DNA of 64,000 bases from Ideonella aquatica (GTDB lineage Bacteria; Pseudomonadota; Gammaproteobacteria; Burkholderiales; Burkholderiaceae_C), in NCBI RefSeq assembly GCF_018069755.1, contig NZ_JAGQDE010000002.1:62001-126000 (forward strand). Reading direction: 5' to 3'. The notes below the pieces were generated by a model, which did no database searches, had not been told where the DNA came from, and saw only the letters and a program-made list of their open reading frames with translations. A program made the translations under genes and the position numbers. Within the stretch, counting starts at the first letter, position 1, and each line of letters starts with the position of its first letter. Shown in pieces: positions 1,559 through 62,431 of this stretch.

Positions 1559-2437
1559 ATGGAAGCGACGTATCAACGCCATCCAAGCATCGAGGGCTGT
1601 TCCTGTACGTCATCGGCGCTGAGCAGCGCGCTGTCGCGGCTGCGCGATGACTTCGAGGACGAGCTGCTGGTGCAGGTGGGCCGCAAGATGGAGCCCACAC
1701 CGCGCGCCGAGGCGCTGCACGACGCCGTGCGCGACGTGCTGGTGCGCATCGACAGCACCATCGCCAGCCGCCCGCGCTTCGACCCCACCGCGTCGGACCG
1801 GCTGTTCCGCATCTGCCTGTCCGACTACACCCAGATGGTGATCGCGCTGCACCTGCTGGCGCTGTGCGCGCAGGAACGCTGCAGCGTGCGCTTCGAGTTC
1901 CTGCCGCAGGTGATGAACCCGCAGCGCACCCTGGAGCGCGGCGAGGCCGACCTGCTGGTCATCCCCCGCGGCTTCATGTCACCCGACCACCCCGAGGAAG
2001 GGCTGGTGGAGGAGCGCTTCGTCTGCCTGCTGTGGGCCCACAGCCCGCTGGCCCAGGGCGAGTTCACCTTCGAGCGCTACCTGGCCGCCGGCCACATCAT
2101 CATGCAGCCCCCCGGCGGCACCGGCGACTCGTTCGAATCGTGGTTCGTCAAACGCTACGGCGTCACCCGCCGCGTGGCCGTCATGTCCTACGGTTTTGCC
2201 GCCATGCCCGCCCTGGTCTGCGGCACCGACCTGGTCGCCACCGTGCACGCCCGCCTGGCCCACTGCTTCGCCACCACCTGGCCCCTGGCCATCCGCCAAC
2301 CCCCGCTGCCCATCGAGGGCATGCAGCAGGCGATGCAGTGGCACAAGTACAAGACGCAGGATCCGGGCTTGGTGTGGTTGAGGGATGCGTTCAGGAGGGC
2401 GGTGTGGAGGATGGATGGGGAGGGGGGGGTGGCGTAG
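1559..2437 (+). pseudogene. LysR-family regulator with a damaged DNA-binding domain
   Basis: From about residue 22 the protein follows NodD-like LysR regulators well (SALSRLR, ELLVQVGRKME, then a substrate-binding domain to the end). The helix-turn-helix before it is degenerate: MEATYQRHPSI resembles the usual start of helix 2, but the expected SxTRAAExL segment is replaced by a few unrelated residues (EGCSC) before TSSALSSAL. No intact HTH start is visible in any frame upstream. The 3' end also looks untidy (G-run at 2416-2429). It probably cannot bind DNA normally. It is divergent from the Rieske gene, the usual position for its regulator. The start at 1559 is only the nearest ATG. Confidence 0.6.
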
Positions 2438-2585
2438 ATGTGCTCTAGTCTGGGATTTACTCGATAAACCTTCCAGTCTCCTTGGGCGCTAGACACCGAA
2501 CTGCATACGGCAGTATGAAGGCAGTGTTCTGACCTTGCTCCCGCTTGCTGCTGTCTATCACGGCTAGGCGGGTCCGAGCCTATCG

Positions 2586-3620
2586 TTACATAGTAGTTTC
2601 CACGAAGACCGGAAAGTGCCGATAGAACTTCCGATACTTAGTCAATTCCGCGTCCGCCAGAGCTATTCCACAGGCCCTAGCCGCGGCAAGGAACTCAGTG
2701 CCGTCGCCGATATCTGGCAAGCAACCGTCCAGGGCGATCTTCTCCTTCACGGTAACAGGCACTAAATCCAAACGACAGTAGGACGTCTGCCCTGTCTCAC
2801 CATAAAGCAAAGGCTGCCGCGCCAAACTGTCCAGCCAGATTGCTTCGGTGTCGTCAGTCACCAAGGCCCCGCCAACAGTCACCATGTCGGCGCCGTCGCG
2901 ATGATGCAGCCTATATAGAGGAATAAATTTGATCCGTTTGCCATTCGACTCGCGCGCCCCGGTAACGACTTGGTGTTCCATGTAGGAGGCTATTGCCTCG
3001 CTTAAAAACTCGGGGAAAACAGCTTCAGGGATATCTCTGAACGTCCCCTTTCCTGTAGGCTGGGGCTCGAAGCGGGTAGGGATGCTTCCGTCACCAAGAA
3101 ACCCTGCCACAACGCCAACGGAGGTTTCTTGTTTCTCAATTTTTCCATCCGGCTTACGAACCCGATAGGTCCCCCGCGCCCCGTTTACCGTGATGAGCAC
3201 GACGGAATTCGGTTGCGCCCTTGAGAGGATGATATCGATATCCTTGACCACCTCATCATTCAGGTGGCCATCGTAGTCAAGCCATGCAATGACAGGCTTG
3301 CTCCACCTCTCAACGGCCATATTGGCCATGACGACATTGCAGTCTCCGGGTTCCACTGTGACCCCAGCGAAAGGGCGATTGAACTCCGCACGGCTTGCAT
3401 AGTCGCTGTACTCAACAGACACCATGCTGTCGATGCCCAGGCGCCTGTGCGCCAGCCTGAAGTCACCGAACCACATCGATCCGAAACCAAGGTACCAGTG
3501 GTCGCCGAAACCGATCTTCTGTGCCGCCGAATCAAGAACATCAAAGACAAGTTTCCTTTCAATGTGCTTGTTGGTGCGGAGAAGGTAGTCGAATCTTTCG
3601 AATGAAGGTGTGCCGCTCAT
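2586..3620 (-). CDS. Unknown protein, Rossmann/methyltransferase-like, third gene of the island operon
   Basis: 344 residues, not recognised with confidence. Visible features: an N-terminal helix, then YLGFGSMWFGDF (44-54) and SMVSVEY (65-71), spaced like the glycine loop and following acidic residue of a SAM-dependent methyltransferase. IAWLDYDG (111-118) and VLITVNG (141-147) follow, like a strand-4 acidic motif and strand 5. The C-terminal 200 residues are unassigned. There is no signal peptide or membrane segment, so it is cytoplasmic. The start overlaps the upstream ATPase gene by 4 bp (ATGA), implying translational coupling and a shared complex. It could be a methyltransferase-like effector, a nuclease of unfamiliar type or a recognition subunit. 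Confidence 0.8.
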   Translation of the reverse strand: MSGTPSFERFDYLLRTNKHIERKLVFDVLDSAAQKIGFGDHWYLGFGSMWFGDFRLAHRRLGIDSMVSVEYSDYASRAEFNRPFAGVTVEPGDCNVVMANMAVERWSKPVIAWLDYDGHLNDEVVKDIDIILSRAQPNSVVLITVNGARGTYRVRKPDGKIEKQETSVGVVAGFLGDGSIPTRFEPQPTGKGTFRDIPEAVFPEFLSEAIASYMEHQVVTGARESNGKRIKFIPLYRLHHRDGADMVTVGGALVTDDTEAIWLDSLARQPLLYGETGQTSYCRLDLVPVTVKEKIALDGCLPDIGDGTEFLAAARACGIALADAELTKYRKFYRHFPVFVETTM

Positions 3621-4960
3621 TTGCCAAGCTCCACCTCTCGGAAGTACTCGAAAGTCTTGATTCCTACGTCTCGCGCAGACATTCCGATATTGCCAAGGTG
3701 ACGCTTTATTTCTTCCACTTCACGCTTGTCGCGCGAGTATTGAATACTGATGGTGGCGGGACGAGGGGCCGCCGCGGCAGCGATAGTTGGAAGTTTAAAG
3801 GCCTGAGCAATTTTCAATTGAGATATATCCACCTGTGCACGAGGTGTCTCTGCCGCCTTAGCGGTTTCAATGTCTGCCTTGCGTCGATTGGTGTAATCGG
3901 TGAATACCTGGGTGACCGCCTTCATGCGTGTGATGGTTCTGCGGTAAAGAGGGCTTGCAGGGTCGAGTTCGCGCTTGGTGGTCGTCCAGGGCAACCTACG
4001 TTGATCATCGGCGTTGTAAAAGACGAAACCTGCAAAACCGTTATACTGCGGGTGCCACAGATTGAATTTGTCATCGCCCCAAATAGTCGCTTCAGTCTTG
4101 TCCGCCGCTAGCACGACCCTATCATTGCAGATGACAAACCAACCATAGCGGTCAACCTTCCCTGGCTTCAGTTCATCGGGAATGTCGTCCGGAAGTTCAT
4201 CCACAAGCCCAGCAAGGATGCGAACGTGAACGCCGTTGTCTTCGTATTGATCGACCGACGGCATTAAATCCTCCGACTGCCGCAATTGGTATGTGTACGA
4301 CGGGACGATATCGTCGCCAACGCTGATTTTTAGGCCTTGCTGGATGAAGAAGGCATAATCTCTCGCAATGGCCTTCATCAGTTCGTTTCTGAAAACGGGG
4401 TCGCCAAGCATTTCTTTGACGCCGTCATTCACCGCTGTGATCTGTATTTGCGTTCCGTGTGTTTCAGATTTTTCGATGTCTTCGTAGTCGAAATCCCAGG
4501 CGTCTTGTGCCTTCCACTCTTCGACATTGATGTTAACTCGGAAAGAAGCGTCATCAGCGTGACTTGTCACTGAGCAAATTCGGCCGATCTTGAATATTGC
4601 CCGTTTCATGCCTATGCCGTAAAGGCCAATGCCGCCGGGAACCTCAGGACTGTCAGCGCGCCGGCCGAAATGGAAAGCATAGTCAATCGCGTCCGATAGT
4701 CTGATTCCTCCTGTGTTATCCTCAATTCTGAAGTAGTTTTCGTCAAATGCAAGGCGGATTTCATAGCCAATAAAGGGCTTTGTGTCATCGTCCGAAGGCT
4801 TGCGACGTGCGCCGTCAATTGAGTTATCCAGCAAATCGAATATACAGTCCCGGAGCTGAATATCTCTGGTGATCATTGTGACGAAAAAGTCTTTCGTCGG
4901 GTCAGTATGAATTTTCTTTGCCGGGGCTGCCTGCCCAGCGTTCGTGTCGTCTGTAGTCAT
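3617..4960 (-). CDS. GHKL (MutL/HSP90-like) ATPase of the island operon
   Basis: 447 residues with the Bergerat ATP-binding fold. N box FDLLDNSIDG (41-50, with the Mg-binding Asn at 46), G1 box EDNTGGI (80-86) and G2 lid GGIGLYGIGMKRA (109-121) are all present. LPWTTTKRELD (from about 323) resembles the S5-like transducer domain, whose Lys contacts the gamma phosphate in MutL, gyrase and MORC proteins. The last 120 residues are charged and unassigned. No endonuclease motif was seen. Published comparative genomics describes MutL-like GHKL ATPases in restriction-modification-type operons. It lies 36 bp after the methyltransferase gene and overlaps the next gene by 4 bp. The domain call is strong; the role is inferred. 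Confidence 0.85.
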   Translation of the reverse strand: MTTDDTNAGQAAPAKKIHTDPTKDFFVTMITRDIQLRDCIFDLLDNSIDGARRKPSDDDTKPFIGYEIRLAFDENYFRIEDNTGGIRLSDAIDYAFHFGRRADSPEVPGGIGLYGIGMKRAIFKIGRICSVTSHADDASFRVNINVEEWKAQDAWDFDYEDIEKSETHGTQIQITAVNDGVKEMLGDPVFRNELMKAIARDYAFFIQQGLKISVGDDIVPSYTYQLRQSEDLMPSVDQYEDNGVHVRILAGLVDELPDDIPDELKPGKVDRYGWFVICNDRVVLAADKTEATIWGDDKFNLWHPQYNGFAGFVFYNADDQRRLPWTTTKRELDPASPLYRRTITRMKAVTQVFTDYTNRRKADIETAKAAETPRAQVDISQLKIAQAFKLPTIAAAAAPRPATISIQYSRDKREVEEIKRHLGNIGMSARDVGIKTFEYFREVELGK

Positions 4961-4996
4961 GCTATTTCCCTGTGTGATATGGCTTTGAAATGAATC

Positions 4997-6115
4997 TTAC
5001 GATACTGCCTTGTGTATCACCGATAAGAGTGCCTCGGAAACGATCGGGCTTACACTATTTCCGATCTGCCTGAAGGCATGCCATTTTGTTGGATGGAATT
5101 GAAACCAATCTGGGAAACCCTGCAGGCGCGCCGCTTCCCTGGGAGCTATGACGCGCGGCGACGATGGATGAACTGGGCGAATCGCTTGGTAGCTTCCTCT
5201 CTCTGGCCCTGTACCGGCCCTCAGAGTGGGGCAATAGCCGTCCATGTGCAAGCGATAGCACTTCGAAATCGCATCCGAAGTCCCAGGCTGAAGGACTCTG
5301 AAGCGCTTCTTCGTCTCGGGCGAGTGCGCCGTGCCGAGGAAACCTGAGACGATAAATTGGTTCTTATGCACAGCCAGTGCATAGGGGTCGCCGACGCCTT
5401 CCGGAATGTGGTTGGCAATGCGATGCTCATAGGGAGCATCATCAAGCTCGCCCACAGCACGCCAACTCTGATCCTCTCGCTGCCAGTCAGATCTGATGAT
5501 GGGTAGGCCACTTAAGGCCCTCGACACCCTCACATCTTCAACGAACTTCGGTGCGAACGCTGCCACGTCGAGTGCGCTGACACGATTTGGGTCATAGCCA
5601 AAGAAGAACACGCGGGTTCTAATCGTTGGCGCGCCGTAGTCGCTCGCTTTCACAGTCATGGGTGCCAGCATGAGGTAATCGTTAGGGACTTGCGCTAAGG
5701 CTCTGTCCAGAATTGGTTTGTTTCGCTCGTGAGTGACGCCAGGTACGTTCTCTGCCAGGAAGAAGGCAGGGCGCAACTCAGCTACATGCCGGAAGAAATG
5801 AACAAGGAGTTCATTGCGCGGATCCTCGGTGCCCTTTAGGCCAATTTCACTGAAGCCTTGACATGGCGGACCACCGATAAGGCCGCAAAGTTCGTTTGAC
5901 TTCAGCCCGGAAAGCTCCAGCAGTCGTTCGCCCGATAGCGTCGCAACATCTTCGACAAGGTGCCTGGAATTCGGGAAATTCACCGCATGCTGCGCTGATG
6001 CTCGCGTATCGAACTCAACAGCCGCAGCAACGTCGAAGCCGGCACGAGCAGCGCCAAGACTCAGGCCTCCCACTCCGGCGAAAAGGTCGATGATCTTCTT
6101 TTTCTGGTGGGGCAT
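4997..6115 (-). CDS. DNA (cytosine-5-) methyltransferase
   Basis: 372-residue C5 methyltransferase with its motifs in order: I DLFAGVGGLSLG (10-21), IV GGPPCQGFS with catalytic Cys85, VI ENV (122-124), VIII TIRTRVF (164-170, a variant of QRRxR), REAARLQGFPD of motif IX and X GNSVSP (352-357). It transfers a methyl group from SAM to C5 of cytosine; the sequence recognised cannot be read from the target-recognition region. ATG 6115 is preferred because GAGG lies about 8 bases upstream; a TTG at 6157 is a weaker start. First gene of a three-gene operon; no restriction endonuclease gene is recognisable beside it. Confidence 0.93.
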   Translation of the reverse strand: MPHQKKKIIDLFAGVGGLSLGAARAGFDVAAAVEFDTRASAQHAVNFPNSRHLVEDVATLSGERLLELSGLKSNELCGLIGGPPCQGFSEIGLKGTEDPRNELLVHFFRHVAELRPAFFLAENVPGVTHERNKPILDRALAQVPNDYLMLAPMTVKASDYGAPTIRTRVFFFGYDPNRVSALDVAAFAPKFVEDVRVSRALSGLPIIRSDWQREDQSWRAVGELDDAPYEHRIANHIPEGVGDPYALAVHKNQFIVSGFLGTAHSPETKKRFRVLQPGTSDAISKCYRLHMDGYCPTLRAGTGPERGSYQAIRPVHPSSPRVIAPREAARLQGFPDWFQFHPTKWHAFRQIGNSVSPIVSEALLSVIHKAVS

Positions 6116-6484
6116 CTGGCAGTCCTCAGCGGCTCTTAACGATAGCGCACAAGGCAAGCATTGTTGATCGGGCGTGAACCTTCAAGTGCAGGTTAGATCG
6201 CTTGGGCTCACTCAACCAGCCGAAACTTCCCAGTTCAAGGGCGGCCTGATGAAGCTACGAAGACCGTCCCAGTCTTACGCGATTGCATTCGACTCTGCGC
6301 GTTGGCGCTATGGCCGCAGTGTTGACCTACGACGGTGCCACACCGGCGGAATCTGCGCTGGCCGCAAGCCCATCGTCAAGTGACGCACCTAGTCTCAAGC
6401 AGTCCTTTGACCAGCACCTATGAGCCTCGCGCCGCTCCTTATCCATCTCAGCTCCGCATCCCTTACTGATGCTAGCGCCTCCCC
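6116..6484. other. Gap upstream of the methyltransferase operon
   Basis: 369 bases without a supported gene. A weak promoter-like pair for the minus-strand operon can be drawn (TTGAAG, 17 bp, AATGCT, near 6165-6193), but the -10 is poor. The right half is intermediate in composition between the island and the chromosome. No tRNA, attachment site or repeat was seen. Confidence 0.4.
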
Positions 6485-7105
6485 ATGTCCCCACCCACCG
6501 ACCCCCGCCAAACCCAACTCGAAACCCTCTACCGCCAAGCCTCCACCGCCCAGCTGCAACGCCGCCTGAGCGACCCCGACCTGCTGCCGCAGGCGCGCGA
6601 GGTGGCGCAGGCGGAACTGCAGCGGCGCAATCAGGCCCGCCAGTCTGCCGCGGTGGCCGCCCAGGCGGGCCGCAGCCGCTCACCGCGCAACGAGCTGCTG
6701 ATGGTCGCGGCCGGTGCCGCGGTGCTGCTGCTGGTGCTGTGGTTCGTGATGCCGGCCGAGGGCTTCTTCCTGTTCCTGGCGGTCATGCTGCCCACGGTGC
6801 TGGCGCCGCTGGGCAAGCTGTATCCGGCCTGGGGCAAGGCGCTGGCGGGCGTGCTGCTGGCAGCGCCGGTGATGCTGGGCGTGTGGCTGTGGCGGCGGGG
6901 TGAGCTGGCCTGGCAGGGCGGTGATTACCGGCCGCTGGGCACGCTGATCTCGTGGGGCGTGCTGCTGGCGGTGTGGGCGCTGTGCTGGGCGCTGGGGGGC
7001 AGTGTGCTGAAGGGCGCGCTGCACCGCGGCAGCTGGGATGCGCTGGCGGATGAGCTGGATCGCGAGCGGTCCAGGAACCTGGAGGACCTGGGCCGGCGGG
7101 GCTGA
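6485..7105 (+). CDS. Conserved-looking membrane protein of unknown function
   Basis: 206 residues. The first 65 are hydrophilic and Gln/Arg-rich, probably a cytoplasmic helix (LQRRLSDPDLLPQAREVAQAEL). About four hydrophobic segments follow (near 70-87, 92-108, 114-130 and 155-175), and the tail is charged. The start at 6485 gives the first in-frame Met; no strong ribosome-binding site precedes it. It converges on mobA with an 18-bp gap. Composition is that of the chromosome, so it marks the right edge of the island. No family recognised. Confidence 0.65.
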   Translation: MSPPTDPRQTQLETLYRQASTAQLQRRLSDPDLLPQAREVAQAELQRRNQARQSAAVAAQAGRSRSPRNELLMVAAGAAVLLLVLWFVMPAEGFFLFLAVMLPTVLAPLGKLYPAWGKALAGVLLAAPVMLGVWLWRRGELAWQGGDYRPLGTLISWGVLLAVWALCWALGGSVLKGALHRGSWDALADELDRERSRNLEDLGRRG

Positions 7106-7124
7106 GCGCGCGGCCGGCGGTGGG

Positions 7125-7727
7125 TCAGCCCTGCAGCCGCCGCAGCTCTTCCGGCGTGTTGGCGTTGTCAAACGCCGCGGCGTCCTCGAACACCACCTCC
7201 ACATGCCGGTGCTGGTCGGTCCAGCGGTCGATCTTGCGCTGGCCGCTCTGGATGAACTGCACCAGGCTTTCCAGCAGGCTGGCGCGCAGCAGGCAGAAGA
7301 CGGGTTGGCGCTGCAGCGCGCCGTCGGGGTCGCGGGTGGCGGCCATGGCCACCTCGGCGTCGGCGGCGTGGGCGGCCTGGGCCAGGCGGGCGGCCAGGTC
7401 GGTGGGGAAATGGGGCGTGTCGCAGGGCACGGTCAGCAGCCAGGGCGTGTCGCAGTGCTCCAGGCCGGCCAAGAAGCCGGCCAGCGGGCCGGGGTAGTCG
7501 GGCACGGCGTCGGGCCAGACCTCGGCGCCCATGGATTCATAGGCCGACAGGTTGCGGTTGGCGTTGATCAGCACCGCGCCCACCTGCGGCTGCAGGCGCA
7601 GCAGCGCGTGCATGGCCAGCGGCAGGCCGCGGTGGTTCTGCAGGCCCTTGTCGACGCCGCCCATGCGGCTGCCGCGGCCGCCGGCCAGGATCAGGCCGGT
7701 GATGTCCTCGGGGGCAATGGTGCTCAT
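7125..7727 (-). CDS. mobA: Molybdenum cofactor guanylyltransferase
   Basis: 200-residue nucleotidyltransferase that attaches GMP to molybdopterin to make the MGD cofactor needed by DMSO-reductase-family enzymes such as the formate dehydrogenase in this window. The N-terminal motif [18 protein letters not shown] (13-30) is the GTP-binding signature. [12 protein letters not shown] and VPCDTPHFP carry the substrate-binding and Mg-binding acidic residues, and the C-terminus has [10 protein letters not shown], typical of MobA. It is the last gene of the minus-strand accessory operon, 4 bp after the TorD-family chaperone gene. Length is normal for the family. Confidence 0.95.
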
Positions 7728-7731
7728 GTCT

Positions 7732-8361
7732 TCACTCCACCATGTCGAAGGCCTGGGTCTCGACCTCGATGAAGGCGCGGGTCATGCCGGCCAGCGCGGC
7801 CAGCCAGCCGGCGCTGGGGTGAGCCTGCACGGTGTCGCACAGCTGCGCCACCCAGGGCTGCAGGTGGCTGCGGAAGAAGCGGCGCTGCTGCTCGAGGTTG
7901 CACACCGCGGCGTCGTCGCCGCCGATCAGGTAGCGCATCACCTCGAAGCCGTAGGCGATGTGGTCCTCGGTCTCGGTGGTGTCGGTGGTGCGGGCCAGGC
8001 CCAGGCGGGCCAGGTCCTCGCGCAGGCGCACCAGCGGGGTCTCGTTCAGGAAGCCGGCCTGGTAGAAGCTGCCGTAGACGAAGACCTCGGGCTTGCCCAC
8101 GCCGCCGAACAGCGCGTCAAAGGCCTCGGTGGCCTGCGCCACGTTCACGCCGCGCAGCGCGCCCACCAGGTCCTGCCAGGGGGTCTCCAGGAAGCCGCCT
8201 TCCTGCGGCGCCTCGGTCACCGCCACGGCAAATTCGCGCAGCAGGGCCTCATCGGGCGGGGCCAGCCACAGGCGGGCCAGCAGGCCGTAGAGCTCGGCGC
8301 GCGCCACCTCTTCGGCGTCGGGGCTGCCGGCAATGGCGATCGGCTGGTCGGTGGGGCTCAT
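7732..8361 (-). CDS. TorD-family molybdoenzyme maturation chaperone
   Basis: 209-residue all-helical protein of the TorD/DmsD family, cytoplasmic chaperones that bind the Tat leader of molybdoenzymes and hold them for cofactor insertion. Visible features are an N-terminal [18 protein letters not shown] helix, the central [12 protein letters not shown] region, and [15 protein letters not shown], which corresponds to the family's conserved E-x-x-D-H-I-x-x-E-like segment. ATG 8361 overlaps the stop of the upstream polyferredoxin gene (ATGA). The likely client is FdhA or the Tat peptide encoded at 15877. Confidence 0.88.
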
Positions 8362-10520
8362 CGGTCGGTGATCCGTTGTTCGTTCGGGTGGCTGTGCAGG
8401 TCGATGACGCGGCAGTCGCTGCACATTTTCAGGCGCTCGGCGGCGGCGCCCTGGAAGGCCGGGTGGGCGCCCAGGCGGGTGATCATGGCCTCAATCGCCT
8501 GCAGCGTGCCGAAGGGCTTGCCGCAGCGCACGCAGGCGAAGGGCTGGGCCTGGTTGAGCACGCGCGGCTGGCGGCGGGCGCGGCCGGCGTCGGCCAGCCA
8601 CAGGCGCGGCTGCAGCGTGATGGCCTGTTCGGGGCAGGTGCCGGCGCACAGGCCGCATTGCACGCAGGCCGATTCGGTGAAGCGCAGCTGCGGCGCGTCG
8701 GGGTTGTCCTTCAGCGCGCCCGACGGGCAGGCGCCCACGCAGGCCAGGCACAGCGTGCAGCGCTGGTTGTCCACGGCCAGCGTGCCCCAGGGGCTGCCGG
8801 CGGCGGGCAGGGCGATGGCCTCGGGCACGGCGGCGGGGGCCTGGGCCAGCAGGTGGTCCAGCGCGGCGTCCAGCGTGGTGCGCTTGTCGGCCATCAGGCC
8901 GAAGCGGGCGCGCTCGCGCACGGTCTGCGCGGGCGGGGCCTGCAGCGCGCTGTCCAGCGCGGCCAGGTCGCGGGCGTCACGCACCTGCAGCAGGCGCAGG
9001 TGGGTGCCGGTGTAGCCCAGGCCGTTCAGCACGGCCTGGGCCACGTCCATCTGTTCCTGCAGCGCGGTGCGGTACTCGGGCGCTTCCTCGTCGGTCAGCA
9101 GCACCCAGACCTGGCTGGCGCCGTGGGCGATGGCCGACAGCCACAGGTCCACGCCGGTGCTGGCGCTGTGCCACAGCGGCAGCGGCAGCACACGCGCGGG
9201 CAGGCCGTGGATCTGCGGGTCCACGCGGGCGGCGCGGCCCAGCTCGTCCAGCCAGCGGGCGCCGGCGCCTTCGCTGTGCAGCAGCAGCGCGGCGTCGCGG
9301 CCGCCGGCGCTGGCGTAGGTGCCCAGCAGGGTGCGCAGGCGCTGGCCCTGGTCGGCCGGGCCGGGGGTCTGGAAGCTCAGCGCGCCGCTGGGGCAGACGG
9401 TGGTGCAGGCGCCACAGCCGGCGCACAGGTGCGGCTCGACGATGATGCCGCCGGTCTGCCCCGGCGCCTTGCCCTTCAGCGACGCATCACTGCGGATGGC
9501 CGAGGTGGAGCACACATCGATGCAGGCGCTGCAGCCGGTGCGCTCGTTGCGGGTGTGGGCGCACAGGCGCTGCTGGTAGCGAAAGAAGGTGGGCTTGTCG
9601 AAGGTGCCCACCATCGCGGGCAGCTCGCGCAGCGCGCTGGCCAGGCGGCGCTCATCGGTGCCGGCGTGCCAGTAGCCCTGCGGCGGCTGGTGCTGGCTGA
9701 AGGCGGGCGTGGCGCGCAGGTCCAGCACCAGGTCGAAGCGCTCGGCCATGGCGAGCGGGTCGCGCTGGAAGTCGATCGCACCGGCGGCCTCGCAGGCGCG
9801 CACGCAGTCGCGGTGGCTGGTGCAGCGCGACAGGTCCACCTGGTACGAGAAATCGATCGCGCCCTCGGGGCAGGCGGCGATGCAGGCGTTGCAGCGGGTG
9901 CACAGCTCCAGGTCGATCGGGTTGTCCTGCACCCACTCGGCGTGGAAGGCGCCCAGCCAGCCGCTCAGGCGCGTCAGGCGGCCGGCGTGGGTGGCAAAGG
10001 CGCGGTGTTGCGGCAGCGCGCCGGGCGCGCTGACCAGCACGGTCACGTCCAGCGTGGCGGCCAGCACTTCCGCGGCGGCCACCGCGGCCTCGGCCGGGCC
10101 GATCACCAGCGTGCGGCCGGCGCTGCGGTAGCTGACCTGCGGCACCGGCGCCGGGTCGGGCAGCTGGGCCAGCGCCAGCAGCGCGGCCAGCTTGGGCGTG
10201 GCCTGGCCAGCGTCCTTCGACCAGCCGCCGCGCTCGCGCAGGTTGACGAAGCGGATCGGCCGCTCGGCGGGCGAGGGCGCGCCTTCGGTGGCGTCGGCCA
10301 GTTCTGCGAACAGGCGCTGCTCCTGCGTGCAGGCCACGATGAGGGTCTCGCCCTCGTCGCGCGCGGCGCGCTGGAAGGCGGCCGCCTCGCGGCGGCACAG
10401 CGTGTGGTGCAGGGTCTCCAGGCCGTCAGCGCGGGCGCTCGGGCTCGTCTGCAGCGCCCGGCTCAGGGCCGGGGCGTCCAGCGGCATCGTCCGGTTGCAG
10501 TCGCAGATCAGGGTCTTCAT
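8358..10520 (-). CDS. Large multi-cluster 4Fe-4S polyferredoxin
   Basis: 720-residue cytoplasmic iron-sulfur protein of the type found beside formate dehydrogenases in Burkholderiales. It starts MKTLICDCNRTMPLD. Cluster motifs follow along the chain: CTRCNACIAACP, CTSHRDCVRAC, CSACIDVCS, CAGCGACTTVCP, CTLCLACVGACP and CVQCGLCAGTCP, with a CVRCGKPF plus a late CSDC near the C-terminus that may form a further metal site. Between them is a stretch resembling a nucleotide-binding or sulfurtransferase-like domain with GPAEAAVAAAEVL. The role is probably electron transfer during, or downstream of, formate oxidation. The start at 10520 lies 95 bp inside the upstream DUF3306 gene. Confidence 0.88.
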   Translation of the reverse strand: MKTLICDCNRTMPLDAPALSRALQTSPSARADGLETLHHTLCRREAAAFQRAARDEGETLIVACTQEQRLFAELADATEGAPSPAERPIRFVNLRERGGWSKDAGQATPKLAALLALAQLPDPAPVPQVSYRSAGRTLVIGPAEAAVAAAEVLAATLDVTVLVSAPGALPQHRAFATHAGRLTRLSGWLGAFHAEWVQDNPIDLELCTRCNACIAACPEGAIDFSYQVDLSRCTSHRDCVRACEAAGAIDFQRDPLAMAERFDLVLDLRATPAFSQHQPPQGYWHAGTDERRLASALRELPAMVGTFDKPTFFRYQQRLCAHTRNERTGCSACIDVCSTSAIRSDASLKGKAPGQTGGIIVEPHLCAGCGACTTVCPSGALSFQTPGPADQGQRLRTLLGTYASAGGRDAALLLHSEGAGARWLDELGRAARVDPQIHGLPARVLPLPLWHSASTGVDLWLSAIAHGASQVWVLLTDEEAPEYRTALQEQMDVAQAVLNGLGYTGTHLRLLQVRDARDLAALDSALQAPPAQTVRERARFGLMADKRTTLDAALDHLLAQAPAAVPEAIALPAAGSPWGTLAVDNQRCTLCLACVGACPSGALKDNPDAPQLRFTESACVQCGLCAGTCPEQAITLQPRLWLADAGRARRQPRVLNQAQPFACVRCGKPFGTLQAIEAMITRLGAHPAFQGAAAERLKMCSDCRVIDLHSHPNEQRITDR

Positions 10521-60512: not shown

Positions 60513-61703
60513 ATGCTGGTCTGGGAAGACGACTCTCGCACCGTCCCGACACCTGTCCCTCGCACCGCGCCCGAACAAGCTCTCGGCAGCGCGCGGGCCG
60601 CGGTCTCCTCTCCTTCTTCTCACGCTGTGGCCGCGGCGGCGCATGCCGAGCACACCGCCGCGTCGTCGGTGGTCGCGCGCAGCGAGCGCCGCGTCAACGT
60701 GGCCGAGAAGCGCATCATCAACGGCCAGACCGATGTCAACCAGCTGGTGCCGTTCAAGTACAAGTGGGCCTGGGAAAAGTACCTCGCCACCTGTGCCAAC
60801 CACTGGATGCCGCAAGAGGTGAACATGTCGCGTGACATCGCGACCTGGAAGGACCCCAACGGCCTGACCGAAGACGAGCGCCGCATCATCAAGCGCAACC
60901 TCGGCTTCTTCGTCACCGCCGATTCGCTGGCCGCCAACAACATCGTGCTGGGCACCTACCGCCACATCACGGCCCCCGAGGCGCGCCAGTTCCTGCTGCG
61001 CCAGGCGTTTGAAGAAGCCATCCACACCCACGCCTACCAGTACATCGTCGAGTCGCTGGGCCTGGACGAGGGCGAGATCTTCAACGCCTACCACGAGGTG
61101 GCCAGCATCCGCGAAAAGGACGAGTTCCTGATCCCGTTCATCGACGCGATCATGGACCCGACCTTCAAGACCGGCACGCTCGAAGCCGATCAGACGCTGC
61201 TGCGCTCGATCATCGTCTTCGCCTGCCTGATGGAAGGCCTGTTCTTCTACGTCGGCTTCACGCAGATCCTGGCGCTGGGTCGGCAGAACAAGATGACCGG
61301 CGCGGCCGAGCAGTACCAGTACATCCTGCGCGACGAGTCGATGCACTGCAACTTCGGCATCGACCTGATCAACCAGATCAAGCTTGAGAACCCGCAGCTG
61401 TGGACGCCCGAGTTCAAGGCCGAGATCCGCACGCTGTTCGAAAAGGCCGTCGAGCTGGAATACCGCTACGCCGAGGACACCATGCCGCGCGGCGTGCTGG
61501 GGCTCAACGCCTCGATGTTCAAGGGCTACCTGCGCTACATCGCCAACCGGCGGGCCACGCAGATCGGCCTGGAGCCGCTCTTCCCGAACGAGGAAAACCC
61601 GTTCCCCTGGATGAGCGAAATGATCGACCTGAAGAAGGAACGCAATTTCTTTGAAACCCGCGTCATCGAATACCAATCCGGTGGCGCGCTGAGCTGGGAC
61701 TGA
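60513..61703 (+). CDS. nrdB: Ribonucleoside-diphosphate reductase beta chain, class Ia
   Basis: 396-residue di-iron protein carrying the tyrosyl radical for NrdA. A low-complexity N-terminus of about 60 residues precedes the four-helix core. Metal ligands and the radical Tyr lie in [13 protein letters not shown] (Glu, His, Tyr) and [14 protein letters not shown] (Glu, His), and [12 protein letters not shown] is the first helix. The C-terminal tail [18 protein letters not shown] binds the alpha subunit. TAGGAAAC precedes the ATG. Confidence 0.96.
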
Positions 61704-61930
61704 TGTCCTGGCGGTCCTTCGGGGGCCGCAGGCTGTGGGCTCCAGCTGATGATGGATCGAGATTCCCGGTGCGGAATCAGGCTGCCATGCGAAGCAGCTG
61801 TCCGTGCCACACCCCATTCATCGGTACGGGGGACGGTCGGTGGTTTCGCCACCCTCCCACCTCCGGTCGATGAATCGCCGGCCTGTATCGAGCGGACCGG
61901 TGTTCTTGCAACTTGATCAAGGAGTTTGAT

Positions 61931-62431
61931 ATGGCAACTGCGAAAAAGGCCGCCCCGAAGAAGGCCGCCCCGGCGAAGAAGGCCGCTGCCCCGAAGAAGG
62001 CGGCTCCGAAGAAGGCGGCCCCGGCGAAGAAGGCTGCGGCCCCGAAGAAGGCCGCCGCTCCGAAGAAGGCTGCCCCGAAGAAGGCCGCTCCGGCCAAGAA
62101 GGCGGCACCGGCGAAGAAGGCGGCTCCGGCCAAGAAGGCGGCACCGGCGAAGAAGGCGGCTCCGGCCAAGAAGGCGGCACCGGCGAAGAAGGCCGCTGCC
62201 CCGAAGAAGGCTGCCGCGCCGAAGAAGGCCGCTGCGCCGAAGAAGGCCGCGGCTGCCAAGAAGGCCGCGCCGAAGAAGGCCGCTGCCAAGCCTGCGGCGA
62301 AGAAGCCGGCGGCGAAGAAGGCGGCCAAGAAGGCCGCTGCCCCTGCCCCTGCTGCTGCCCCTGCGCCTGCGGCCAAGACGGCACTGAGCCCGGCAGCTGC
62401 CTGGCCCTTCCCGACCGGCAACAAGCCCTGA
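61931..62431 (+). CDS. Histone H1-like Ala/Lys/Pro-rich DNA-binding protein
   Basis: 166 residues made almost wholly of AAPKKAA and AAPAKKAA repeats, ending in a short hydrophobic AAWPFPTGNKP tail. Such proteins are common in Burkholderiales and resemble the C-terminal tail of histone H1 and chlamydial HctB; they bind DNA without a folded domain. RBS AAGGAG lies before ATG 61931. Length varies between strains in such genes because of repeats, and here there are three 36-bp units. A strong terminator follows. Confidence 0.9.
   Translation: MATAKKAAPKKAAPAKKAAAPKKAAPKKAAPAKKAAAPKKAAAPKKAAPKKAAPAKKAAPAKKAAPAKKAAPAKKAAPAKKAAPAKKAAAPKKAAAPKKAAAPKKAAAAKKAAPKKAAAKPAAKKPAAKKAAKKAAAPAPAAAPAPAAKTALSPAAAWPFPTGNKP
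62087..62194 (+). repeat. Three in-frame 36-bp tandem repeats in the histone-like gene
   Basis: Units at 62087-62122, 62123-62158 and 62159-62194. The first two are identical and the third differs only in its last base. Each encodes 12 residues (two KKAAPA-type steps). Near-identity at the DNA level, unlike the rest of the gene, points to recent slippage or unequal crossing over, so copy number may vary between strains. Confidence 0.85.

Follow-up and report, generated by a model that had tools for sequence, protein, structure and literature searches.

Prokaryotic MORC and paraMORC ATPases have been described in restriction-modification (R-M) operons, where genes for proteins with GHKL and S5 domains and a MORC signature neighbour those for cytosine methylases and, in some cases, Vsr (Iyer, Abhiman, Aravind 2008, PMC2292703). 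In the part of that paper available to us, about 70% of the operons have a superfamily II (SFII) helicase, a minority have methylases or restriction enzymes without one, DNA looping is proposed as the role of the MORCs, and no methyltransferase-fold partner is named. A parallel arrangement is formed by the HEF_HK and Response_reg_2 clusters, in which a C5 DNA methyltransferase gene lies upstream of genes for a GHKL protein (HATPase_c_3) and a third alpha/beta protein, and where Vsr or HNH is often present (Bellieny-Rabelo 2021, PMC8011034, in its accessible part). A GHKL ATPase also acts in anti-phage defence in Shedu VcSduA, formerly paraMORC3, which has a fused PD-(D/E)xK nuclease (PMC12137116, accessible part). 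Here we describe a trio of genes in a 64,000-nucleotide stretch of Ideonella aquatica (contig NZ_JAGQDE010000002.1, positions 62,001 to 126,000; hereafter the window) that shares a GHKL ATPase with all of these systems, its MORC signature with the first and a cytosine methyltransferase with the first two, and differs from them in lacking the helicase of most MORC operons, the domains of the HEF_HK clusters and the nuclease of VcSduA, and in having a protein of predicted methyltransferase fold (MT35) as the ATPase's partner. We cautiously favour reading the trio as a mobile, methylation-gated anti-invader (anti-phage) system in which the MORC-type ATPase and MT35 replace the restriction enzyme. 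The three genes are as follows.

4997 to 6115, minus strand: C5 cytosine DNA methyltransferase, the modification component (372 amino acids (aa); an alternative TTG start is possible at 6157).
3617 to 4960, minus strand: MORC-type GHKL ATPase with GHKL and S5-like domains and Lys finger K329 (447 aa).
2586 to 3620, minus strand: MT35, a Methyltransf_35 protein and the constant partner of the ATPase (344 aa).

All three open reading frames (ORFs) are intact and run head to tail in the order methyltransferase, ATPase, MT35. Their coordinates agree with the tight coupling proposed by the first-pass annotation of this DNA, with a gap of 36 bp (4961-4996) between the first two and an overlap of 4 bp (3617-3620) between the last two.

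We examined how often these genes occur together, using a search with the MT35 family (PF20553) that was blind to neighbouring genes. MT35 was found in 4 of 299 genomes of the family and 5 of 398 of the phylum, which make eight distinct genomes including the window's own. A GHKL gene lay directly upstream of MT35 in all eight and a C5 gene stood beside the pair in five (loci L013, L016, L017, L018 and the window), while in the remainder the pair lay inside a DISARM operon (L014, L015) or next to a gene for an SNF2-type helicase (L019). A reciprocal search of the 299 family genomes with the GHKL profile returned four intact matches, in the same four genomes as MT35, and a broken GHKL remnant in a genome (G056) with no MT35 match. 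A wider set comprised 19 loci from genome contigs and 39 from viral contigs, whose 66 MT35 ORFs of more than 280 aa reduced to 45 at 90% identity, leaving out two split copies (L011, L077) and duplicates of one stretch. By record titles the trio is spread over alpha-, beta- and gammaproteobacteria. GHKL lay within 100 bp of MT35 at 42 of these 45 loci and overlapped it at 38; the exceptions were L029, with 198 bp, and L027 and L047, which are truncated at the end of a contig. A C5 gene was present within 4 kb of MT35 at 39 of 45 (downstream in opposite orientation, 20; downstream in the same, 12; upstream in the same, 6; upstream in opposite, 1), and the six without one were the DISARM loci L012, L014 and L015, the helicase locus L019, L022, where C5 is fragmented, and L039, where a transposase gene adjoins the pair. 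There were 40 C5 ORFs in the 374 kb lying at most 4 kb from MT35 and 3 in the 372 kb beyond. Since the association is repeated in unrelated genomes, it is not due to chance, and recurrence as a unit, set in advance as the test of the annotated trio, was thereby borne out.

The three genes do not travel with equal fidelity. In a comparison of identity matrices from 36 complete trios, MT35 was strongly correlated with GHKL (Pearson 0.97), and C5 less so with MT35 or GHKL (0.72 each); with 11 prophage-type loci removed (8 of them P2; 25 trios left) the values were 0.96, 0.54 and 0.53. The bootstrap difference between the MT35-GHKL and MT35-C5 Pearson coefficients was 0.25 (0.12 to 0.42). Consistent with this, at 15 loci the C5 protein shares 51-55% identity with that of the window although MT35 shares only 19-23%, and at L028, L031 and L042 the identity to the window is 34-35% for C5 and 30-31% for MT35. 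Together, these correlations and mismatched identities indicate that GHKL and MT35 evolve as one unit, with the C5 gene exchanged more freely.

The places in which the trio is found point to defence. In the Pseudomonas filamentous phage PfAC20 (L010, 280-3711) the GHKL, MT35 and C5 genes are ORF1-3; in the accessible part of the PfAC20 paper the cytosine methyltransferase is assigned to an 'incomplete' R-M system, and the accessory genes of sister Pf phages include Gabija, Avs, IetAS, Kiwa and retrons. PfAC20 also carries a second gene annotated as a DNA cytosine methyltransferase (ORF9, 5438-6082). In E. coli EC77, EC05 and AR_0006 (L079, L080, L106) the trio occupies the interval from the P2 portal gene to the replication gene gpA, a slot known as a hotspot of antiviral systems (Rousset 2022, accessible part), whose supplementary tables may list the trio unnamed. 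Among viral contigs, a P2 portal gene at most 3 kb upstream combined with gpA at most 3 kb downstream was seen at 21 of 39 loci, which correspond to 8 in the non-redundant set of 45. The EC77 version of the trio occurs in 2 of 5,426 E. coli genomes. With the search set to distant sensitivity, 254 of these genomes had a match to one part or another, including 47 in which at least 80% was covered, and among the 40 of these 254 records that were listed all three gene names appeared in 34, the methyltransferase only in 5 and the ATPase only in 1. In E. coli SD134209 and O157:H7 EDL933 the trio lies amid prophage genes that look 'lambdoid' from a reading of the neighbours, and the EDL933 proteins are 34% (GHKL), 25% (MT35) and 53% (C5) identical to the window's.

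The GHKL-MT35 pair is also shared between the window and DISARM class 1: at all three DISARM loci found (L012, L014, L015; one from a Microvirga plasmid, two from relatives of the window's family) it is flanked by the genes for DrmMI (MmeI-like) and DrmA. L012 was assigned by record annotation and PADLOC, with record annotation as the sole basis for DrmD, and L014 and L015 by similarity to the L012 proteins. By gene content these operons, which have both the MORC-type ATPase and MT35, seem to be a DISARM variant not yet described. The L012 DrmA, DrmB and DrmC proteins had no phmmer match at 1e-8 among ORFs of at least 80 aa in the window, the only DNA covered by this search. With the Pf cargo slot, the P2 hotspot, the DISARM operon and a slot that holds the defence candidate PDC-S59 in a sister genome, the evidence of location upholds the mobile defence setting that had been suggested for the trio, and such placement argues for a defence role, which we consider highly probable.

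We then asked what kind of ATPase the trio encodes. The window protein matches PF13589 (E 7.6e-10) and has the four GHKL ATP-binding motifs described for prokaryotic MORCs; D42/N46, D81/G85, G115/G117, G169 and the Lys finger K329 show no variation among the 43 aligned ATPases. The MORC signature GhXhhpXXRhl (Iyer 2008) was present in 42 of the 43 (the exception being L013) compared with 43 of 8,600 shuffled proteins, and in the window it falls at residues 273-283 (GWFVICNDRVV) within an S5-like domain. The predicted model (predicted local distance difference test score, pLDDT, 87.8) gave structural matches to Hsp90/TRAP1, SMCHD1, MORC3 and MORC4, whereas profile comparison with sequences of solved structures gave weak matches throughout (best HtpG, E 0.0018; MORC2/MORC3, 0.014 and up). 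The label of MutL/MORC-like ATPase given at first pass thus stands in its MORC part and not in its MutL-like part, which was dropped after the signature test: judged by its sequence motifs, the window ATPase is MORC-type rather than MutL-like.

The third protein had been called unfamiliar and turned out to be already classified, as Methyltransf_35 (PF20553; E 3.1e-63; 214.4 bits against a cut-off of 27; residues 6-343 of 344), a family described in Pfam as 'putative O-methyltransferase'. Its predicted model (pLDDT 92; predicted template modelling (TM) score, pTM, 0.91) has a class I methyltransferase fold, with the tRNA methyltransferase Trm1 (3axs) as the best PDB match (E 3.7e-6; TM only 0.40), while a PDB sequence search gave nothing meaningful. 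Seventeen residues are unchanged in all 45 MT35 proteins, including R15, K18, R22, D53, H58, E70, R77, N81, D115, D242 and E293. In the model E70 ends strand 65-70 and D115 ends strand 110-115. In this predicted fold E70 supplies the acidic residue of the pocket for S-adenosylmethionine (SAM), at what we take to be the place where SAM enzymes bind ribose. Class I SAM methyltransferases usually have an acidic residue before the first glycine loop, which MT35 lacks. MT35 may bind SAM and read DNA, or may itself be an enzyme.

The C5 enzyme matches PF00145 (E 1.2e-53), TIGR00675 dcm (NCBIfam, above cut-off), the PADLOC Type II methyltransferase model (E 2e-92) and PDB 3g7u (E 3.7e-120), and PPCQ, ENV and QIGNS motifs are present, in agreement with the C5 DNA methyltransferase call made at first pass. 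The window C5 protein supplies the DNA methyltransferase of a Type II R-M system, for which no cognate endonuclease was found in GHKL or MT35, the scan covering these and not the other island ORFs (196 aa or less). The stretch corresponding to the target recognition domain (TRD) is 19-54% identical between the window and the other 35 trios, and we therefore name no recognition sequence. Vsr genes lay near the pair at seven loci (L011, L016, L018, L028, L033, L036, L041), an HNH gene at L036 and an AspBHI-type nuclease gene at L013, in a scan of 20 neighbouring ORFs of 11 loci picked by size and position, so that these counts are not a rate. Because Vsr repairs damage derived from 5-methylcytosine, its presence speaks for active C5 methylation.

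Three loci deserve mention. At L013 (6666-7883) the AspBHI-type gene adjoins the trio's C5 methyltransferase gene, an odd pairing, AspBHI-type enzymes being modification-dependent nucleases. At L033 (6381-8588) the C5 gene is separated from the MORC-MT35 pair by a Vsr gene and by a gene for another GHKL protein, which is longer (582 aa). On a Sinorhizobium meliloti megaplasmid (L011, 3671-8816) an IS66 transposase gene interrupts the pair and MT35 is shortened to 253 aa, which indicates that the trio can decay.

We compared the trio with catalogued systems. PADLOC v2.0.0 (2023) had no family for GHKL or MT35 even at E≤1, in keeping with the first-pass remark that this exact trio was not familiar as a named system; NCBIfam had none above cut-off for either, and PHROGs gave only phrog_19983 for MT35 and phrog_20521, weakly 6203, for GHKL, all listed as function-unknown. 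Literature searches of partial coverage found no published name, which is weak evidence of absence. An SFII helicase, which is not a strict MORC requirement, was found in none of the window's three proteins and was seen only at L019 and the DISARM loci. The HEF_HK and Response_reg_2 domains (PF19191, PF19192) are absent from the window proteins at E≤1, and the window GHKL profile found nothing at E≤1e-3 in seven Response_reg_2 loci, the HEF_HK gene of these loci being unverified. Homology of MT35 to Response_reg_2 proteins was considered and rejected (hhalign probability 2%); on these comparisons the third protein of the 2021 clusters is different and not detectably related to MT35. MORC genes beside cytosine methylases are known in general (PMC2292703), and what appears to be new is MT35 as a core partner.

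Under the reading that we favour, the C5 methyltransferase would mark resident DNA at its own recognition sequence, and the MORC-type ATPase and MT35 would be made as a pair, probably forming one complex in place of a restriction enzyme. MT35, with its Trm1-like fold and altered catalytic motif, would most likely be the DNA reader, sensing site and methylation state, perhaps with SAM bound. On ATP binding a MORC dimer would close round or loop unmarked DNA, which would then be blocked or passed to a nuclease supplied elsewhere. The exchangeable C5 methyltransferase, with DISARM enzymes in its stead at some loci, suggests that the pair acts downstream of the self mark, and gating by methylation through MORC-MT35 is something we lean towards. 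In DISARM itself, the ATPase rate of DrmAB is lower on methylated DNA (DISARM structure paper, accessible part).

Several results weigh against this account. MT35 is rare, and five of the 45 stretches (L012, L015, L019, L022, L039) have no C5 ORF of at least 250 aa, while L014 has a weak C5 match 5 kb off, so that a C5 mark cannot be the pair's only partner. Spearman coefficients are lower than the Pearson values (0.80 for MT35-GHKL, 0.44 for MT35-C5, 0.52 for GHKL-C5). Glu is the usual general base of GHKL ATPases, and all 43 ATPases have Asp at the presumed position. The structural matches of MT35 are weak (TM by query length 0.27-0.40 among the best 50 matches listed), and at the place of motif IV, usually of the D/N-P-P-Y type in nucleic-acid methyltransferases, it has W-(L/F/M)-D-(Y/F), WLDY in the window. 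Finally, Pfam, PADLOC and NCBIfam recognise no nuclease family in any of the three proteins.

One rival explanation is an ordinary type II-like R-M system, in which MT35 or the C-terminal part of the ATPase would be a hidden nuclease that cuts unmethylated DNA. The C5 methyltransferase with Vsr genes nearby would fit such a system, as would the many invariant acidic and basic residues of MT35 (all those named above except N81), but MT35 has a predicted class I methyltransferase fold and neither it nor GHKL matches a nuclease family in Pfam or any PADLOC model; we think a hidden nuclease unlikely, and the absence of a known nuclease from the pair favours blocking, looping or recruiting. A nuclease-free form of MORC silencing is a reading that we hold only tentatively: an MT35 reader and MORC ATPase would trap and compact DNA that lacks the C5 mark, as a bacterial counterpart of eukaryotic methylation-linked MORC silencing, and the pair would be a plug-in module that DISARM uses as well, there with a different mark. 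MT35 could alternatively be an active second methyltransferase (of DNA, tRNA or another substrate), making the pair a modification or toxin-like effector under control of the MORC ATPase. Its fold, the invariant E70 and D115 at strand ends and its best structural match, the tRNA methyltransferase 3axs, agree with this, whereas the glycine loop without a preceding acidic residue and WLDY in place of D/N-P-P-Y, by motif rules that we take to be general, do not, and we regard an active enzyme as improbable. Carriage by P2-like, lambdoid-looking and Pf prophages would suit an anti-restriction and addiction module serving prophages or plasmids, where C5 protects the DNA of the element, the pair penalises its loss and there is no net defence. 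Yet the trio also lies on the window's chromosomal contig, where P2 queries found no match, and the pair occurs inside DISARM and in slots otherwise occupied by defence genes, and we give such a module little credence.

Within the window, the trio lies in a foreign block whose boundaries and neighbours are as follows.

About 2427 to 6469, no strand: foreign low-GC block between the LysR gene and the 206-aa gene (edges by BLAST against sister genome G685 and GC profile).
1591 to 2437, plus strand: left flank, LysR-type regulator gene (96.7% match to 7936-8771 of the G685 locus L098).
6485 to 7105, plus strand: right flank, 206-aa gene (same junction in G685; the L098 copy has no Pfam family).

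The lower GC noted at first pass was confirmed, at 0.49-0.56 in the island against 0.67-0.77 in the flanks (500-bp bins of 2501-6000: 0.556, 0.552, 0.524, 0.498, 0.486, 0.560, 0.554; edge bin 6001-6500, 0.590; flanks 0.67-0.72 in 1-2500 and 0.71-0.77 in 6501-9500). In G685 the flanks of the slot are 97% identical (837 bp left, 3.5 kb right) and its contents differ: instead of the trio block, L098 8986-11197 holds PDC-S59, which PADLOC lists as a defence candidate (E 3.9e-186), and a 241-aa gene that matches no Pfam family. Four genus relatives were inspected; in G689 (L110) a LysR homologue (57% identical) lies 82 bp from a MobA homologue, indicating that the slot can be empty, and L109, L111 and L112 have no LysR match and are uninformative. 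MT35 is present in 1 of 16 genomes of the genus. The flanking LysR gene has LysR_substrate and only positions 24-60 of HTH_1, its N-terminal helix-turn-helix (HTH) coding part being incomplete relative to G685, and by this comparison it is probably a remnant. We found no convincing flanking repeats at the island edges, no tRNA in the 64-kb window and no sigma-70-like promoter above chance at the island. Elsewhere in the window, 61913-62431 is an ORF of lysine/alanine/proline repeats with a tandem 18/36-bp repeat (about 20 copies of 18 bp), presumably histone H1-like; we take its neighbour at 60513-61703 to be a gene for a ribonucleotide reductase beta subunit.

The trio offers a defined, clonable 3.5-kb unit for addressing two questions: the role of prokaryotic MORC ATPases, raised in 2008, and the possibility of methylation-gated defence that needs no nuclease. 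It recasts the gene of the 'incomplete' R-M system of PfAC20, and three generically named genes that occur together in some E. coli genomes, O157:H7 among them, as parts of one candidate system, and it suggests a MORC-MT35 variant of DISARM. For eukaryotes, it may be relevant to the origin of the link between MORC proteins and DNA methylation.

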